A stretch of 44,493 nucleotides of DNA from Fibrobacteria bacterium (lineage in GTDB: Bacteria > Fibrobacterota > Fibrobacteria > UBA11236): NCBI GenBank assembly GCA_025360005.1, contig JANYDA010000047.1:1-44493 (forward strand), written 5' to 3'. The notes below the pieces were generated by a model. The model searched no databases. It was not told the origin of the DNA and saw only the letters and a program-made list of their open reading frames with translations. Position 1 is the stretch's first letter, and each line of letters starts with the position of its first letter. Shown here piece after piece: positions 4,481 through 12,403 of the stretch. A program made the position numbers and the translations under genes.

Positions 4481-4912
4481 GCCCGGGCCGGGCGGGACGC
4501 GTCGAATACGCCTCACCCCCCCTCATCCAGACGCCCTTCGCCAATCGCTCTCCGGCAGGGAGCGGGAAGATCCCAAATCCCCCCCAAACGGATAAGGCAT
4601 TGCGGTATGATATTAGAGCTATGGGAACGATGGATATGCGCGACGAAAGGGAAGGCCATCGGGTCGTCCTTCCCGGGCATTATGTAGCCGATTCGGGTGG
4701 CTATTGCGACATGATTGCCGCGCAGATAGGTCGATTCCCGTGCATTTGACCAGTATTTTCCCGGGTCGGAGAGTAGATTGGGTAGGCCGTTTTACCATTT
4801 TTTCAAACAGAAAAACTCGGGGTTTCGTCGGAAAATTGATTAATTATTGTGCTCTCGGGTTTTTCAACTTTGGTCCGATCGTTGGGTTCGGGCTTTGAGG
4901 GGTTCAGCGAAT
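4481..4912. other. Gene-poor gap of 432 bases
   Basis: I find no supported gene here. The first half is GC-rich; the second half (about 4780-4870) is AT-rich and probably carries the promoter of the cytochrome gene, but no clear paired -35/-10 hexamers stand out. One short frame (4621-4749, 42 residues) is considered in the rejected list. Confidence 0.5.
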
Positions 4913-6418
4913 ATGTATAAATCAGGTTTGGCCAAGAAATTATTAATCGCCCTGGGACTGCCCGTGCTTGCGGGAGCCCAGACCTTTAAGTACTGGGATG
5001 TCACCGCGCCGGACAGTCTTAAGAAGACCCCGGCTTTATTGTCTTTGACGGGCATGTACACGGACATAGCGGCCGCAAAGAAGAAATATCTCACCAACGT
5101 TTACCAGTTCGACGTGAACTCGGCGCTGTGGAGCGACGGCGCGCATAAGACGCGTTGGGTGATGCTGAAACCCGGTACCTCCATCAAGTACGCGGAGAAG
5201 AGCGACTATTGGGGCTATCCGGACAGCGCCGTCTTCATCAAGCAATTCGCCATCGACACCGTTCCCGGCGACACCACCACCCGCCTGCTGTGGGAAACCC
5301 GCTTCCTCATCAACCGCAAGGAAGTTCCGGACACGGCTTTTCCCACCGTCAAAATGGACCGTTGGTACGGCTATAGTTACAAGTGGAACCGGGACGGCAA
5401 GGACGCCAAGCTTGTGCCCGCATTGGGCGCGGACGACTCGGTCAAAATATTCCCCAGCGGCAAGAACACCGCGGGAGTGATGAAGAAATGGCGTTTCCCT
5501 TCCCGCGAGCAATGCACCTTTTGTCATCGCGTGGATTATTCGGACACCCTGCATGGCCGGTCGGTATTGGGCTTCTTCACCGCCCAGCTCAATCGCCCCT
5601 CTCCCGTCACCCCCACCATCAACCAGCTGGAGGATTTGTTCACCAAGGGAGTGCTCACGGGAACCAAGTCTAACTGGAAGGCATCCACCACTCCCCATTG
5701 GTACGCTATCGATGATTCCACGGCCAGCGTGGATATCCGCGCCCGTTCCTACATCGCCGCCAATTGCTCCGGCTGCCACGGCACGCGCGGCATGGCCACC
5801 GGCGCCACCTTCGGAGTGGATTTGAATTACGATTTCTTCACCATGGAATCGCAGATGGAGTTCCGGCACAAGTCCACCTCTTGGCCCTTCGGCTTGGACA
5901 CTATCGCCCCTTTCTTCTATCCCAAGACCGGTGACTTGAATAACCCCCTCGGCAAGGATTCCCTGGAAATCCAGCCCGCCCTGGTGGTGCCTGGTTATCC
6001 GGGGAAGTCCGTGATCCTTTTCCGTCAGAGAAGCCGCAATACGCGGCCCAGCGACTATGATCCCGATCGCAACCAGATGCCGCCTTTGGCATCCTTCGAG
6101 GTCAACGTCCCGGCCACCGACCTCATCGCCAAGTGGATCAAGGACTGGACTCCCATCGCCGCCCCGGGCGCCCTGGGAGTCCGCACCTGGGTGGTCCGCA
6201 CCAACCTGAAGGGCCCCGGCATCCAAGGCAACCTTGTGGTCCTGCCCATGGAATTGGCGGGTCCCGGCCAAGTAAAGGTTTCCTTGATCGGCATCAACGG
6301 ACGCAAACTGGACTTGGTCCAGAAGAGCCGCACCGCCTATGCGCTGCCGGCGAATCTGGCTCCCGGCATCTACATCATCAAGGTCAACAGCAAGAGCTTC
6401 ACCCGCTACCTGTTCTAA
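4913..6418 (+). CDS. Exported diheme c-type cytochrome (SO2930/HNE_0200-like) with T9SS-like tail
   Basis: A 501-residue exported protein resembling the TIGR03806/SO2930 family of diheme cytochromes of unknown redox partner. The ATG at 4913 opens a signal peptide (LLIALGLPVLAGAQ). The N-terminal half has the family pattern YQFDVNSALWSDGAHKTRW and WYGYSYKWNRDG. Two heme-binding CxxCH motifs are seen: CTFCH (residues 201-205) and CSGCH (residues 285-289). The last 75 or so residues are a separate beta-rich tail (VKVSLIGINGRKLDL, then LAPGIYIIKV) like T9SS C-terminal sorting domains, which fits with SprA elsewhere in the window. It is monocistronic by appearance: a long upstream gap and a strong terminator just downstream. 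Confidence 0.82.
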   Translation: MYKSGLAKKLLIALGLPVLAGAQTFKYWDVTAPDSLKKTPALLSLTGMYTDIAAAKKKYLTNVYQFDVNSALWSDGAHKTRWVMLKPGTSIKYAEKSDYWGYPDSAVFIKQFAIDTVPGDTTTRLLWETRFLINRKEVPDTAFPTVKMDRWYGYSYKWNRDGKDAKLVPALGADDSVKIFPSGKNTAGVMKKWRFPSREQCTFCHRVDYSDTLHGRSVLGFFTAQLNRPSPVTPTINQLEDLFTKGVLTGTKSNWKASTTPHWYAIDDSTASVDIRARSYIAANCSGCHGTRGMATGATFGVDLNYDFFTMESQMEFRHKSTSWPFGLDTIAPFFYPKTGDLNNPLGKDSLEIQPALVVPGYPGKSVILFRQRSRNTRPSDYDPDRNQMPPLASFEVNVPATDLIAKWIKDWTPIAAPGALGVRTWVVRTNLKGPGIQGNLVVLPMELAGPGQVKVSLIGINGRKLDLVQKSRTAYALPANLAPGIYIIKVNSKSFTRYLF

Positions 6419-6554: not shown

Positions 6555-7310
6555 TTATTCATAACTCGGGAGCCGGGAACCATAGCGGGATTTGCCGGAG
6601 AAGGTCTGGATATATCCGGTAGCCAGCAGCTTCCCGCGCGTGGATCTTTCAAAACCCATGCATCCCACCCCGCGGCGGAAATGATAATAGGTGACGGTGT
6701 CCCCGTAGGTTTCCCGGAACAACAGGGTGGGATGCCTCTGGAAGCCATGCTGGATGGGGGCTTTGGCTTCCTCATCCGCGCCCTGGAACAGAATCTCCGT
6801 ATAGAAGGCCGTGTCCGCCTTCACCAATTCCATCATCCGCCCGGGTTCTATGCTCCAGGCGGCGCCTGGCCTGGGGAATTGCGGGAGCCATAGCACGGGG
6901 TTGGAATCCAACGCCAAAGCCGAGTCGCGGAAGCTTCCCATGATATAGACCCCGGCGGAATCCCGGTTCCCGTTCCCGTCCTTCCAGGAAAGCAGGTAAC
7001 CGCTGCGGGGGCTCTCGAATGCGTACCCATAAAGATCCTTACCCTTGGGGATGATGTGCAGCTCCAGATGCTGCCTCATCACCAGGCTTCCCGTCGTATC
7101 GAACTCTACGTAATTGAAGCTGGAGTAGGCCTCCTGTTCCAGCGGGATAATCGATTCCCCCAAAGGCTTGGGAAAGGGGTCGATTACGTCGTTAGCCGCA
7201 CCCGCGGTACTTTGTTCAGAGGCCAGGCAGCCGCAAAGCAGAATGGAAACGGCCCATCCCGCGGCCGGCAATAAGTCCCGGAATCCCGGGCGCGTGATCT
7301 TTTCCTTCAT
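6555..7310 (-). CDS. Lipoprotein, last gene of the sigma/caspase operon
   Basis: A 251-residue lipoprotein of unknown family. The start at 7310 is chosen because its ATG overlaps the TGA of the caspase gene (ATGA), and it gives a lipoprotein signal ending in the lipobox LLCGC (about residue 27). The mature part is soluble, with no repeats or recognised catalytic motif; several aromatic and acidic segments suggest a beta-rich fold. Being translationally coupled to the caspase/barrel gene, it may be its lipid-anchored partner, substrate or inhibitor, but that is positional inference only. Confidence 0.75.
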   Translation of the reverse strand: MKEKITRPGFRDLLPAAGWAVSILLCGCLASEQSTAGAANDVIDPFPKPLGESIIPLEQEAYSSFNYVEFDTTGSLVMRQHLELHIIPKGKDLYGYAFESPRSGYLLSWKDGNGNRDSAGVYIMGSFRDSALALDSNPVLWLPQFPRPGAAWSIEPGRMMELVKADTAFYTEILFQGADEEAKAPIQHGFQRHPTLLFRETYGDTVTYYHFRRGVGCMGFERSTRGKLLATGYIQTFSGKSRYGSRLPSYE

Positions 7311-9358
7311 GGGTATCTCCGTGGGGATCGCGAGGGGGCGGCGGCCTGGCTCCGCCCCAGCAGGCCAAGGCTCAGGACGGCGGTGCAACCTTTTTCGGAT
7401 GCACTGAAATCTTCGCCTTCCGCATCATAAATATCGGCCACCCGCATGAAATAAGGCGAAAGCCGGAATCCCAGGGCCAGTCCCTTGCCCAGCCAACGCT
7501 GCGGGACGCGGACGCGATAAGCCAGGCCGGCTTCCACGCGCACGCCTTCGCCGGTGAAATCCACCGTGCTGGATTGCACGGATTCGTACAAAGGCCGCGC
7601 CAGGGTACGCTCGCCGCGCATATCGCGGGATACCAGCGAGGCCCCCATTTCCAGGGACAACCCTTGCGCTTGGGTAACCCAAAAGTTACGTGCCAGATAA
7701 GCGCCGACGCGTGAATCGGATAGGGAATAGCTGCGCGAAAGGTTAACGGGATATCGGAAACGGGCGGAATCGGGAAGGCTGTTCAAGGGCTCCCGTCCCA
7801 CGGACGATAGGGAATAATCCAGAGCCGAAAAGGCGAACCGAAGGTCAATGGCCCATGCCCCGGTCACGGTGAAATCCAAATCGATCCCGAAATCGGGTTT
7901 TGATTTCCGGTTCCGGAAACCGTCCGTAGTCCCGAAATAGCGATCGATTCCCGACTGGGCATTCAGGTTCCTCTCCAGCACGGCATCGGAGAAACCGGCC
8001 GCGCCTCCCCATGCCGTATAACCCATGCGGGTCCAAAGCCCGGCGCTGCGCATTTCCGGACCTTGCGGATCGGCATCCGCGTCCTCCTCTCCGGGGAAAG
8101 CGGATCCTTTGGCCAAGGCTTGCTCCGCGACCTGGGATTGGAAGGCGGTGAAAGGCAAAGTGGCCATGGCCGCGTTGGCCAATTCAAGATCGGCGGACTG
8201 GGCCGGACCGTGGCCGGGTTTACCCGGCACGCTCGGCACATATACCACCCGGTAACGTCCCGGTTCCAGGGCCAAGGTGAACTCTTCGCCCTCCGGCATC
8301 CGCAGCTCCCCGATCTGGATGCCCCTTTGCATATCGACCACGTTGTATAGCCCCGCAGGGCAACCTTTGAACAGGATGCCTGTTCCTCCGCGCAGCAGGC
8401 GGGCCAGGGTGACGTCCCGCGCGCCCGTCAAATCCATCTGGAAGGAGGGATGCTGCGGCCTGTCCAGGGTTTCCGCGGAATAGCCGGAGGTGCGGTCATA
8501 AGCGTAATTGTAGGCCTCGAAGAGGGTAACCTGCCCGTCACGGTTGCGATCGCCCGCTCCGCGCAAGGCCATGATCCAATGGCTGGTGAAAATCGATCCT
8601 CCCAGGTTCTTGACTTCGTAGGCCTGCTCGTCCAGGGAAGAGGAGCTGATGGTGACCTCGCCGCGGGCGGCTTGATCCATGTCCATCTGCAATTGCACCG
8701 GTGGGGCGGTCCGGAATCCCTTGGCATTGAAAAAGGAAGCGCCGAAACAGACATCCAACACGTACACGCGCGCATCCGCGCTTTCCCCGCCCAAGGCGGC
8801 TTTCACTTCATCGAAGGTCAAGGTCCCATCCGAGAAATGGAAACGTTTGGCGCCTCCGTGTCCGGAGTAATAGAATTGGAGGAATACCTTGCGGTGCCGT
8901 CCCTTCAATTCCGCTATTCTTCGCCCCACGGCCAGCAGGGAACTCCGGAACCCTTCCCGGTCCTCCGCCTTCAGCAGGATAAGATTGGCGGGTTCGATTT
9001 GCCCCACGGAGGAGAGCATGGCGCCCAGCCGTTCGCCATCCCGATAGGCATATCGCAGGGGCTGATCCCCGTCCAGGCCTTTGGCCGAAGCAGCCACCAC
9101 GGCCAAGCGGACCCAGGAATCGTCGATGACGGAGCCTGGATCTACGCCGGCTCCGGAAAGGGTACCGGGCGTCCCCTGCGTCCGGGACAAGCTGGGCGCG
9201 CCGGATGCGTACAAGGTCGATGGGGCGGGGATGAGAGGGCCCGCCGCCTGCAGCGGCGGTATCGAGAGGCAAAGCGACACAAGCCAAGCCGCCGGCATTC
9301 GACCGGGTCGGGCGCGGAAAAGGGGGTACGCCGCGCGACGCGATCCGGGGAGCTTCAT
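7307..9358 (-). CDS. Exported caspase-fold protease fused to a probable outer-membrane beta-barrel
   Basis: A 683-residue protein. The ATG at 9358 overlaps the stop of the upstream gene (ATGA) and gives a hydrophobic export segment (about residues 22-39). Residues 82-320 are a peptidase C14 (caspase/metacaspase) domain: strand RLAVVAAS, the catalytic histidine in YYSGHGG (H167), the catalytic cysteine in VYVLDVCFGASFF (C204), and the downstream TISSSS/GGSIFTSHW segment. An EF-hand-like loop GDRNRDGQVTLFEA sits at 269-282. Residues about 330-400 look like a small beta domain (PEGEEFTLALEPGRYRVVYV). From about 440 to the end, alternating strands with aromatic ends (DLDFTVTGAWAIDLRFAFSAL, LALGFRLSPYFMRV) suggest an outer-membrane barrel. 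Bacterial caspase-like proteins prefer basic residues; the target here is unknown. Confidence 0.85.
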   Translation of the reverse strand: MKLPGSRRAAYPLFRARPGRMPAAWLVSLCLSIPPLQAAGPLIPAPSTLYASGAPSLSRTQGTPGTLSGAGVDPGSVIDDSWVRLAVVAASAKGLDGDQPLRYAYRDGERLGAMLSSVGQIEPANLILLKAEDREGFRSSLLAVGRRIAELKGRHRKVFLQFYYSGHGGAKRFHFSDGTLTFDEVKAALGGESADARVYVLDVCFGASFFNAKGFRTAPPVQLQMDMDQAARGEVTISSSSLDEQAYEVKNLGGSIFTSHWIMALRGAGDRNRDGQVTLFEAYNYAYDRTSGYSAETLDRPQHPSFQMDLTGARDVTLARLLRGGTGILFKGCPAGLYNVVDMQRGIQIGELRMPEGEEFTLALEPGRYRVVYVPSVPGKPGHGPAQSADLELANAAMATLPFTAFQSQVAEQALAKGSAFPGEEDADADPQGPEMRSAGLWTRMGYTAWGGAAGFSDAVLERNLNAQSGIDRYFGTTDGFRNRKSKPDFGIDLDFTVTGAWAIDLRFAFSALDYSLSSVGREPLNSLPDSARFRYPVNLSRSYSLSDSRVGAYLARNFWVTQAQGLSLEMGASLVSRDMRGERTLARPLYESVQSSTVDFTGEGVRVEAGLAYRVRVPQRWLGKGLALGFRLSPYFMRVADIYDAEGEDFSASEKGCTAVLSLGLLGRSQAAAPSRSPRRYP

Positions 9359-10194
9359 ATGCGCGTTCCTCCCTTGGTGATGGCGAAGATTTGCAGGTAG
9401 AGGCCTTTCTGGAGACGGAAGGGCGGGGCTTTCTCCATGGGCAGGAAGGGAGCGCGTTTCAGGGCCGCTTCCGCATCCGCGATCCGGAAGGGCGCGACGG
9501 CGGTAACGCAGATGAGACGGTTCTCGGCCATATCCTGCAAGAGCAGGGCCGGAGGCGGGTCCAGGCGCGACACGCGGCGGGATTGCTCGCCATCCTTGGG
9601 GAAAAGCCGCACCAAGCCTTGGCGCGCGTCCCAGCCCAAGAGAACAAGGTGCTGGGCCTCCGATCCCAACGGCATCACTTGCAGCGTATCCGTGGCGGCC
9701 ACCTTGGCGGCCTGGTTCTCCACCCGGTAGGCGATATCGCCCTTGACGAAAAGGCTCACGCCCAGGCCCCGGCCTTTGGCGATAAAATCCGGATCCGAAA
9801 CGGCGGAGGCGTCGAATCCCGTCGGGACGGAGTCCGGTTGCATTCCCTTTGCCCGCGTGCCCGGGAAGAAGGGTAACACGCATAATACCATGAGGGCGAA
9901 TGCGCAGGCCAGCCCGGGAACTTGCGCGCTTGCGCCCGGGAACCGCGGGAATGCGGGGGTGCGGGCCGATCGCGCGGGGGCCTGACCGCCGGCGGCGTGG
10001 GCAACGTGGGGATACAGCGACCTTTGCAAGCGCGGCATTTCCCGTTCCCGGTAGGCGGCGTTCCGTTCCCGCAAGGATCGCAACTCGGCGCGCAAGCCTC
10101 CGTCAACCAACAACGCCCAATCCATCATCAGCCGCTTGGAAGCCGGCAGGGCGCCCGCCAGGTACAATTGCAGATCCGTCGCGCTCAACTTCAT
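9355..10194 (-). CDS. Membrane-anchored anti-sigma-like protein with DUF4384-like exported domain
   Basis: A 279-residue protein between an ECF sigma factor and the caspase gene, overlapping both by four bases. The cytoplasmic N-terminus (SATDLQLYLAGALPASKRLMMDWALLVDGGLRAEL) resembles the helical start of anti-sigma proteins but has no HxxxCxxC zinc motif. One membrane helix lies at about residues 92-112 (VPGLACAFALMVLCVLPFF). The exported C-terminal part (residues about 135-279) has the look of domains that accompany bacterial caspases: FVKGDIAYRVENQ, then LVLLGWDARQGLVRLFP, then LLLQDMAENRLICVTAVAPF. The probable job is to hold the sigma factor until an envelope signal arrives. Start chosen from the ATGA overlap with the sigma gene. 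Confidence 0.72.
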   Translation of the reverse strand: MKLSATDLQLYLAGALPASKRLMMDWALLVDGGLRAELRSLRERNAAYREREMPRLQRSLYPHVAHAAGGQAPARSARTPAFPRFPGASAQVPGLACAFALMVLCVLPFFPGTRAKGMQPDSVPTGFDASAVSDPDFIAKGRGLGVSLFVKGDIAYRVENQAAKVAATDTLQVMPLGSEAQHLVLLGWDARQGLVRLFPKDGEQSRRVSRLDPPPALLLQDMAENRLICVTAVAPFRIADAEAALKRAPFLPMEKAPPFRLQKGLYLQIFAITKGGTRI

Positions 10195-10670
10195 TTTCCG
10201 GCCTTGCGATCGGAATGTTTGGCCAGTATATCCTTGCGGGCCGAATGGGCGCGCTTGCGTGCGCCCGCTTGGGAAATGCCCAGGCGCGCGGCCACTTCCT
10301 CCCAGGTCAACTCCCACAGGTATTTCAGAGTCAACACTTCCCGGTACTTGGGCTTGAGGTCCGTGAACAAGGTTTCCGGGTCGGGCGGGTCTTCCTCGGC
10401 CTGGGGGCCTCCCTGGCCGGAATCGGCGCCGTGGCTCTCCGGATCCAATTCCGTTTCCGGGAATCGGCGCCTGCGGCGGTACCGATCGATGCAGAGGTTG
10501 CGGGCCGTTACCGCCAGCACCCGTCCCAATTCTTCCGGGGTCAGGTCCGGTCGCTCGCGCAGCAAGGCGGGCACCTTATGGGCGAATAAATCCTGCACCA
10601 AATCCTCCGCATCCTCGCGGGTCTTCAATATGGACAGCCCGATGGAGAAGGCCATAGGCGAGAACCGCAT
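10191..10670 (-). CDS. ECF-type RNA polymerase sigma factor
   Basis: A 159-residue sigma factor of the extracytoplasmic-function class. Region 2 is short at its start but clear (REDAEDLVQDLFAHK, then ARNLCIDRYRRRRRF); region 4 follows (PKYREVLTLKYLWELTWEEVAARLGISQAGARKRAHSARKD) with the helix-turn-helix. No in-frame ATG, GTG or TTG lies between this start and an upstream stop at 10689-10691, so region 2.1 is truncated relative to many ECF factors. It is the first gene of a four-gene unit joined by ATGA overlaps. The 140-base gap upstream shows no strong terminator for the preceding lipoprotein gene, so read-through is possible. Confidence 0.9.
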   Translation of the reverse strand: MRFSPMAFSIGLSILKTREDAEDLVQDLFAHKVPALLRERPDLTPEELGRVLAVTARNLCIDRYRRRRRFPETELDPESHGADSGQGGPQAEEDPPDPETLFTDLKPKYREVLTLKYLWELTWEEVAARLGISQAGARKRAHSARKDILAKHSDRKAGK

Positions 10671-10809
10671 GAATATTTCTTCCAGAAATCACTCCATATC
10701 TGGGACAAGAACGAATGGAAAGGTGTTGGCTGCTACCTTTTGCCGGACTTAAAACGGTTCTAAAAAGCCCAAAGGCTTGCGGAAAAGTAACCTATGGGGA
10801 AAGGCGGGG

Positions 10810-12282
10810 CTACTTGAGCGAAGAGTAGAAGACGAACTTTTTCTCGCCGGGCTTGACCGAGATATTGTCGAAAGCCTTGGAGCCGAGGGTGCGCCCGGAA
10901 GCGTCATGCGCTTCCACGTTGAAGGAGTGGTTGCCCGGTTTGACGGGAATGCGCGCTATCTGCACGGTGCGCGGCAACAAGAACCATGCGCGCGTGTCGG
11001 CCTGTTCCAGTTGATCGGCGAGCAAATCCGTGCCGATGTTCAGGATCAGGTTGATCAGGGGATTGCCGCCGGAGACGGCCGACTTGGTTTCTTGCGCGGT
11101 GATAGTGCGGGCCACCACGCGGATCACGGTGCGGGTGAGCATGGCGGCGTGGTTCTCCTCCAGATAACGGCTCATCAGGGGCTCCAGATTGGTCAGCGCT
11201 TCGGTCTTGACCGGCGTGGGCGCCGCCTCCCCGGCCACGGTGAAGAAGCGCGTATTGGAAGGCGCATCCTTCATGGCTGGCAGGGCGAACTTGACGTGGA
11301 AGGTGGTGCCGGATTGGGTACGGCGACCGTTGCCGGCGCCTTGCAACTGGGAGGCCGGCAATCCTGGGGCAGGTAGCACCTGCGTTACCTCCTTGCCCTG
11401 GGCGTCGTGGTAATGGATGACCAGCACGCCGTCCCGTTCCCAGGTGCCCCAGAATACGTTCTGGCCCAGAGCTGGGCTGCGGCCCGCTTCGCCCATCACG
11501 ATGATCTCCGCGCCCTCGCCGTCCGCGAACAACTCCGTCCCTCCGGCATCGGCCGTCGTGGCCGGAGCGCTGGGCAATTTCAACTCATCGATATCGCTTT
11601 GGCGATCACGCGCCTTCAAGGCCGAGTAGGCCCCGCGAGCGACCGTAAGCGGCAGGGCGATGGGCCCGCTCCGGTAGGCTTTCACGGACTGGTACATGGA
11701 AATGGCTGCGTCGTCTTTCCGCCCTTGCGCCTGATAGGCGATCCCGGTCAGGTAGCGGAACATGCCGTCATCGGTGTATTTGCCCGCATCCTTGCCGGCT
11801 TTCCGTTTCAGCTCGTCCAGGTACATTTGGGTTTGCCGCGACTCGACCACGGCGTCGTCGTATTTACCCAGGGCCAGGTAGTCGAAAGCCAGGAACTGGT
11901 GGAGCAGCACCACTTCATAGGGCTTGCCGCGATAGGGGCGGACATTATCGTTGGCGAGGAAGGAAAGCGCCTCGTTGCTGACGGACTTGGCGAACAGTTC
12001 GTCCTCGATGGCCGATGCCTTGGACAACTCCGCCAGGCTGGAATCGTATTGGCCCGCGTAATGTTGCAGGATGCCCAGATCCATGTGGTAGAGGAGTTGG
12101 CTGGCGCTCCCGTAGAGGTCCTGGTTTTTGCGCACGTCCGCCACGGCTTTGGCGTAGTCGTCCTTCTGCGCGCTGCCGGCAATCTTTTCGAATCGCAGCA
12201 GGCTCTTGTCCGCGCAGCCAGAAAGGAGGCTTAGGGCCAACATTGCGTATGGGAGTTTCCCGATGGGAAGGGGCGCGGACAC
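10810..12282 (-). CDS. COG3014-like lipoprotein with TPR-like repeats
   Basis: A lipoprotein of about 490 residues resembling COG3014 envelope proteins of unknown function. The GTG at 12282 is preferred because an AGAGG sits about seven bases upstream and it gives a normal-length signal ending in lipobox LLSGC; the frame is open to an ATG at 12336, which would give an overlong leader. Residues about 40-200 form helical, TPR-like repeats (YHMDLGILQHYAGQYDSSLAEL; FLAFDYLALGKYDDAVVESR; YLTGIAYQAQGRKDDAAISMY). The C-terminal part has a conserved block ARTITAQETKSA and ends with FNVEAHDASGRTLG. COG3014 genes are commonly found beside LpoB-like genes, as here. Confidence 0.78.
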   Translation of the reverse strand: MSAPLPIGKLPYAMLALSLLSGCADKSLLRFEKIAGSAQKDDYAKAVADVRKNQDLYGSASQLLYHMDLGILQHYAGQYDSSLAELSKASAIEDELFAKSVSNEALSFLANDNVRPYRGKPYEVVLLHQFLAFDYLALGKYDDAVVESRQTQMYLDELKRKAGKDAGKYTDDGMFRYLTGIAYQAQGRKDDAAISMYQSVKAYRSGPIALPLTVARGAYSALKARDRQSDIDELKLPSAPATTADAGGTELFADGEGAEIIVMGEAGRSPALGQNVFWGTWERDGVLVIHYHDAQGKEVTQVLPAPGLPASQLQGAGNGRRTQSGTTFHVKFALPAMKDAPSNTRFFTVAGEAAPTPVKTEALTNLEPLMSRYLEENHAAMLTRTVIRVVARTITAQETKSAVSGGNPLINLILNIGTDLLADQLEQADTRAWFLLPRTVQIARIPVKPGNHSFNVEAHDASGRTLGSKAFDNISVKPGEKKFVFYSSLK

Positions 12283-12403
12283 TTCTGGACCTCTTGTCGC
12301 GAGCGGTTTACGGAATGGCTCGGGCCGGAGCTGCATACGGAACGGAATTCAGTAAGGGCGGGGCAGCGCCGGTCGTGCGAAAGACCGGGTCACCCTTTCC
12401 TTC

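Follow-up and report, generated by a model that had tools for sequence, protein, structure and literature searches.

A caspase-clan protein in a widespread sigma/anti-sigma gene unit of Fibrobacterota and other phyla: a possible trans-envelope signalling pathway

Overview

The window analysed here is the whole 44,493-nucleotide contig JANYDA010000047.1 of a Fibrobacteria bacterium (assembly GCA_025360005.1), and its minus strand carries four open reading frames that encode an extracytoplasmic function (ECF) sigma factor, a membrane anti-sigma factor, an exported caspase with an eight-stranded barrel and a lipoprotein. The unit looks like one copy of a widespread but unstudied outer-membrane signalling route, with a relative of the caspases as the likely trigger. 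The reading that it is a trans-envelope signalling unit in which the caspase serves as the site-1 protease that releases the sigma factor is the one we favour, tentatively and at a little under an even chance.

Bacterial relatives of the caspases are mostly discussed as enzymes of death or immunity, and little is known of what they cut. In the loci examined here, a single type of anti-sigma factor accompanies one caspase lineage in nine or more phyla, together with a candidate cleavage site, a shared promoter and, in relatives, targets in the TonB system. If the favoured reading is true, the long-known, functionally blank exported caspases of bacteria would acquire a defined role in signalling, not cell death, DUF4384 would be given a context and a new route for a signal across the envelope would be added to those described. 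Moreover, the question of what exported bacterial caspases cut becomes directly testable, by two point mutations.

Gene organisation and conservation across phyla

The four genes are joined, as described in the original prediction, by three ATGA overlaps on the minus strand, between sigma and anti-sigma at 10194-10191, between anti-sigma and caspase at 9358-9355 and between caspase and lipoprotein at 7310-7307. Lone ATGA overlaps are frequent in bacterial operons and one by itself has little meaning. In three orthologues of the same genus (L032, L033, L034), the nine junctions that correspond to these are ATGA without exception, and in each orthologue the overlap ATG opens the lipoprotein frame; in a more distant orthologue from another family (L035) the gene order is retained and the overlaps are gone. 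By sequence, strict ATGA coupling is therefore a feature of the genus level only, and so is the tight stoichiometric coupling proposed from the overlaps.

The original prediction named a lack of co-conservation in relatives as a refuting result, and it withstood this test, for the four-gene order on which it relied does recur in them. All four genes are present in order in each of the 16 Fibrobacterota genomes that have the lipoprotein, and the anti-sigma family is present in 138 of 168 Fibrobacterota genomes. The caspase was sought in 84,980 species genomes with a four-row alignment, broader caspase alignments being too divergent for the purpose; the peptide patterns used were derived from Fibrobacterota caspases, so that the scan samples one caspase subfamily. 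The scan returned 80 loci, with sigma, anti-sigma and caspase genes in that order at 76 of them. Three of the four exceptions end at contig ends, and the fourth (L140) has an anti-sigma gene with no sigma gene found. The loci belong to Fibrobacterota, Myxococcota, Spirochaetota, Acidobacteriota, Latescibacterota, Pseudomonadota, Gemmatimonadota, Bdellovibrionota and Eiseniibacteriota, and further loci occur in unassigned records, several of them titled Aminicenantes. Judged by these sequences, the three-gene core is not local and recurs over at least nine phyla.

The linkage was also tested without the caspase as starting point, by searching for DUF4384 in 15 genomes of other phyla that had been picked from the caspase loci. 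All 17 Pfam matches lay directly upstream of such a caspase, and no DUF4384 protein without an adjoining caspase was found in these genomes. Four Myxococcota genomes (G168-G171, loci L213-L229) hold up to five DUF4384 anti-sigma/caspase units each, which suggests parallel pathways. A tblastn search of plasmids with the Fibrobacter caspase gave C-terminal matches only, in Persicobacter.

The sigma factor and its candidate promoter

The first gene (10191 to 10685, minus strand) is confirmed by sequence profiles as an ECF sigma factor, with regions 2 and 4 and without region 3. Its product matches Sigma70_r2 with 26.3 bits (cut-off 24) and Sigma70_r4_2 with 39.1 bits (cut-off 25.7) in Pfam, as well as TIGR02937 with 61.2 bits (cut-off 42.9; E-value 9e-17). 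The gene had been started at ATG 10670, a codon that is not conserved and is GAG in the same-genus orthologue L033. All four same-genus sequences share GGAG (10695-10692 in the window), six bases and an in-frame CTG GAA GAA/GAG, and the start is therefore probably CTG 10685, giving a protein of 164 amino acids. In the stretch 10683-10698, the candidate CTG is preceded by an in-frame ATG GAG TGA that is likewise conserved. A frameshift in the N-terminus, suspected from a plausible upstream frame, was rejected, as the orthologues show the in-frame CTG start.

The unit reaches upstream, on sequence grounds, to a promoter-like element at 10736-10710. This candidate, GTAGCA-N16-TCGTT (10710 to 10736, minus strand; -35 at 10736-10731 and -10 at 10714-10710), is identical in its 11 bases and 16-base spacing upstream of the sigma gene in the window and four orthologues, one of which belongs to another family and is unalignable over the rest of its intergenic region. 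In addition, GTRACACTT-N12-GGTGTT emerged when spaced words in the regions before all sigma genes were counted without supervision; the leading pair was present in 47 of 154 such regions, as against 5 for the best pair in shuffled sequence. The layout of the cross-phylum motif, GTAACA-N16-GTGTT, is the same as that in the window. The joint pattern occurs no more than 150 bases upstream of the sigma gene at 50 of the 80 caspase loci, in every phylum listed above except Eiseniibacteriota (one locus), with 97 matches in the 80 loci compared with 4 for the reversed pattern; a strict form is found in 43 of 61 genomes of the class, against three matches listed in all for its reversed control. Conserved among orthologues and between phyla, this spaced motif directly upstream of the sigma gene is a candidate for the autoregulated, ECF-type promoter of the operon.

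Predicted regulon

Fibrobacter genomes have a single copy of the unit, and the recurrence of the motif in them gives a predicted regulon for it. At distances of 24-102 bases, the sites precede the unit and also further genes, namely a TonB-dependent receptor-like gene with a Plug domain, a DUF4249 lipoprotein gene, a DUF3450/ExbB/ExbB/ExbD/TonB operon and FMN-reductase-like genes. Loci with the motif upstream of TonB-receptor-like, DUF4249 and ExbB/ExbD/TonB genes include L260, L262, L264, L266, L272 and L274. Two further loci, one in an unassigned bacterium (L116) and one in a Myxococcota genome (L128), have the motif in front of divergent ExbB/ExbD genes, with TonB as well in L116.

In the 4.98 Mb genome of the window, the exact GTAGCA-N16-TCGTT has one other match (C25:76089), which looks like chance, lying inside a long protein-coding stretch. 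As this is the sole other exact site, the regulon of the window copy may be its own operon alone. The description of the system as self-contained thus fits the window copy; in the wider family it does not hold, as the sigma factor there appears to control TonB/ExbB genes.

The anti-sigma factor and a candidate cleavage site

The second gene (9355 to 10194, minus strand) is predicted to encode a helical anti-sigma domain, a membrane helix, a linker and a DUF4384-type sandwich. In the AlphaFold2 model, which has an overall predicted local distance difference test (pLDDT) score of 78, the helical N-terminus (residues 1-70) is above 90, a single membrane helix spans about residues 94-112 (predicted helix 96-109, inside a hydrophobic stretch), and a flexible or disordered linker is followed by a beta sandwich at about 142-277. 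Its position directly after the ECF sigma gene and the profile of its family support its identification as a membrane anti-sigma factor, so that the sigma/anti-sigma pair first proposed is real, with the support coming from the family profile and not from a direct Pfam match of the window protein. Among the aligned relatives, 8 of 34 match zf-HC2 and 17 of 34 match DUF4384 (PF14326), as do 12 of 48 in a second set; no relative in either set (34 or 48 searched) matches the FecR domain, DUF4384 being found instead. Against the whole PDB, the family profile gave nine weak matches only (E 0.03-0.7), all at the N-terminus, among them the anti-sigma factors ChrR, 3hug_B and RsiW. Foldseek and VIA-align returned only immunoglobulin-like sandwiches for the model, at a background Z of about 5-6, and no fold is claimed.

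In the linker that connects the membrane helix to the DUF4384 domain, one position holds Lys in 142 members of a set of 143 non-redundant anti-sigma proteins and Arg in the other member. Gly follows this position in 141 of 143, and Arg stands two residues before it in 99 of 143. The window version of this R-x-K|G motif is IAK140-G141 (codons at 9772 to 9777, minus strand), a candidate caspase cleavage site in the juxtamembrane linker, bordering a stretch of low model confidence.

The exported caspase and the lipoprotein

The third gene (7307 to 9358, minus strand) encodes a protein of 683 amino acids. In its AlphaFold2 model, a signal sequence is followed by a caspase domain at residues 82-297, a small beta domain at 305-402 and an eight-stranded barrel at 443-667. 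In Foldseek the caspase domain matches legumain and caspase-3, and the barrel matches OmpA and Ail; no Plug or receptor domain was matched in the protein. OmpA-type barrels have both termini on the periplasmic side, which would therefore place the caspase domain in the periplasm, where the exported domain of the anti-sigma factor sits, and from the model we infer an outer-membrane barrel with a periplasmic caspase domain. These models bear out the expectation that an exported caspase with a barrel differs from the cytoplasmic death modules and faces the envelope.

Metacaspases cut after Arg or Lys. The H167/C204 dyad of the window caspase, together with D107, S165 and D202, is invariant in 46 of 46 and 38 of 38 aligned rows of relatives. 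D107 and S165 (by alignment) and D202 (by the D-x-C motif) are the counterparts of the S1 residues Asp95, Ser156 and Asp211 of TbMCA2 (PMC4357240). By its residues, the protein is of the caspase-clan C14B (metacaspase/orthocaspase) type, with the acidic S1 pocket for Lys/Arg kept. The same genome has a second sigma/anti-sigma/caspase unit (C17 105813-107521), whose caspase is 33% identical and whose promoter has no match to the motif, as well as a third Peptidase_C14 gene (592 amino acids; C57 86962-87570) with no sigma or anti-sigma neighbours.

The fourth gene (6555 to 7310, minus strand) encodes a predicted lipoprotein of 251 amino acids that has no Pfam, NCBIfam or PADLOC match; its lipobox is clearest among its orthologues. 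Homologues occur in 16 of the 168 Fibrobacterota genomes, always directly downstream of the caspase, and from this distribution the lipoprotein is a Fibrobacterota addition to the three-gene core. Paralogous units (L037, L038, L039, L049, L050, L057, L066) have lipoprotein genes of other families beside the sigma or caspase gene, often with ATGA overlaps, and the lipoprotein therefore seems to be an exchangeable part for sensing or anchoring. In the caspase tree, the window clade (5 tips) lies apart from the other four-gene clade (11 tips), with a weakly supported FastTree backbone. A single origin of the four-gene form is not supported by this tree, the two clades being separate.

Proposed mechanism and alternatives

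The gene order, the domains, the conservation of active site and promoter, and the target genes in relatives can all be read from the sequences. In the pathway proposed on this basis, an autoregulated operon would supply the ECF sigma factor, its anti-sigma partner in the inner membrane, whose DUF4384 domain is exported, and a likewise exported caspase of Lys/Arg type. The barrel and the lipoprotein would hold the caspase in the periplasm and keep it inactive for as long as the state of the outer membrane or of a bound ligand is normal. A change in the outer membrane or the ligand would lead the caspase to cut the anti-sigma factor after K140, in the segment from the membrane helix to the DUF4384 domain. 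Removal of the membrane stub by the customary intramembrane and cytoplasmic proteases would then free the sigma factor. Free sigma would transcribe its own operon and, in relatives, also the TonB-dependent receptor and ExbB/ExbD/TonB genes, leading to restoration of outer-membrane function. Location, cleavage, downstream proteolysis, the signal and the role of the lipoprotein are the parts of this pathway that we infer. A wider proposition, possible and put forward with more reserve, is that a widespread ECF anti-sigma pathway senses the state of the outer membrane and drives TonB-dependent transport, with an outer-membrane-tethered protease of the caspase clan as its dedicated site-1 enzyme.

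The original prediction left open whether the caspase is the signal protease or an induced output. A near-invariant R-x-K|G together with a conserved pocket for a basic P1 residue is the pattern expected of a protease and its dedicated substrate, and therefore tilts the argument towards the protease, suggestively and without proof. Several observations weigh against this. The window anti-sigma protein itself has no Pfam match, DUF4384 included, and shows no zinc-finger pattern of Cys and His. In the DUF4384 domain, two Asp residues are as invariant as K140, and the near absence of Arg at that position (1 of 143) may mark a structural Lys, not a P1 residue. The window caspase scores 18.6 bits against a Pfam cut-off of 21.4 and has the motif DVCFGA, where most relatives have DACxSG. 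Moreover, a caspase in the outer membrane must reach a substrate in the inner membrane, and the TonB regulon was identified in relatives and not for the copy in the window.

A possible but unlikely alternative is that the caspase and lipoprotein are the output, a separate DegS/RseP-like protease freeing the sigma factor and the induced caspase processing or destroying surface or periplasmic proteins, as a stress response or in self-killing. Co-transcription of the caspase under the sigma factor's own promoter, as the overlap and the motif imply, would fit this, as would an operon that may be the entire regulon in the window genome, its one other exact promoter match lying in a coding stretch, and the variation of lipoprotein families between paralogous units. 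An exchangeable output would not, however, need to be tied to one type of anti-sigma factor over so great an evolutionary distance; the anti-sigma factor bears the conserved R-x-K|G, and the sigma factor in relatives has other, more obvious output genes.

Slightly less likely again is that the caspase is bound without cutting: the exported anti-sigma domain would hold or inhibit it, or sense its conformation in the way that FecR senses the FecA signalling domain, and other proteases would cleave the anti-sigma factor. In established cell-surface signalling, outer-membrane proteins contact the periplasmic domains of anti-sigma factors, which makes this a known arrangement, and the linked TonB genes resemble the targets of such signalling. 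DUF4384 also occurs fused to orthocaspase polypeptides, suggesting direct contact (PMC7475262, PMC6426788). Nevertheless, the catalytic dyad and S1 pocket are invariant, which pure binding would not require. A grouping of the four genes by chance, or as a mere operon with no function in common, for which the general commonness of ATGA overlaps in bacteria might be adduced, is contradicted by the conserved promoter and by co-conservation, seen at 76 of the 80 caspase loci and in all 16 genomes with the lipoprotein, and is scarcely credible.

Relation to known systems

ECF/anti-sigma signalling is the known kind of system to which the unit belongs. The unit resembles FecI/FecR/FecA and PupI/PupR/PupB in having an ECF sigma factor, an anti-sigma factor of the inner membrane with one domain exported, an outer-membrane barrel and TonB-linked targets (here in relatives). 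Where those systems have a TonB receptor and its signalling domain in the outer membrane, however, the unit has a caspase with an eight-stranded barrel, and its exported anti-sigma domain is DUF4384-type. As with RseA/DegS/RseP and RsiW, a site-1 cut in the periplasmic part of a single-pass anti-sigma factor would free an ECF sigma factor, although the proposed enzyme here is a caspase-clan cysteine protease from the same operon. A precedent for cleavage of a sigma-factor inhibitor by a caspase-like protease is Craspase/CASP-sigma of the type III-E clustered regularly interspaced short palindromic repeats (CRISPR) system, in which Csx29 cuts the sigma inhibitor Csx30 (PMC10028731); that protease is a cytoplasmic, RNA-guided TPR-CHAT protein without a membrane anti-sigma factor, whereas the window caspase is exported and has a barrel.

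The linkage of sigma and caspase genes was already known. Metacaspase genes in predicted operons with sigma-70 factors have been reported in Myxococcus, Anaeromyxobacter, Haliangium, Sorangium, Ralstonia and Fibrobacter, and this operon linkage is what the present unit shares with that report, which treats it in one paragraph and describes no lipoprotein, barrel or export, no anti-sigma factor or DUF4384, and no cleavage site, promoter or regulon (Asplund-Samuelsson et al. 2012, PMC3501461). The anatomy and the cut site, as well as the promoter and the regulon, have apparently not been described before. In a literature search that left most subscription journals outside it, none of five papers mentioning DUF4384 was also among those found for anti-sigma factors. 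In EACC1/EACC2-caspase systems a caspase domain likewise lies near ECF sigma genes at some loci (Kaur 2020; PMC8195603), but these are EACC-type conflict systems with variable effectors, and the window caspase scores 40.5 bits against the EACC1-associated model NF047832, below its cut-off of 140. None of the four proteins matched a model or defence family in PADLOC.

Neighbouring genes

Upstream of the sigma gene and beyond the unit's own promoter, a lipoprotein-like gene (10810-12336) is syntenic in the same-genus orthologues. On the other side, a convergent gene on the plus strand (4847-6418) has CxxC motifs of haem or related type and ends in a GIYIIKV-type C-terminus, possibly a secretion signal.

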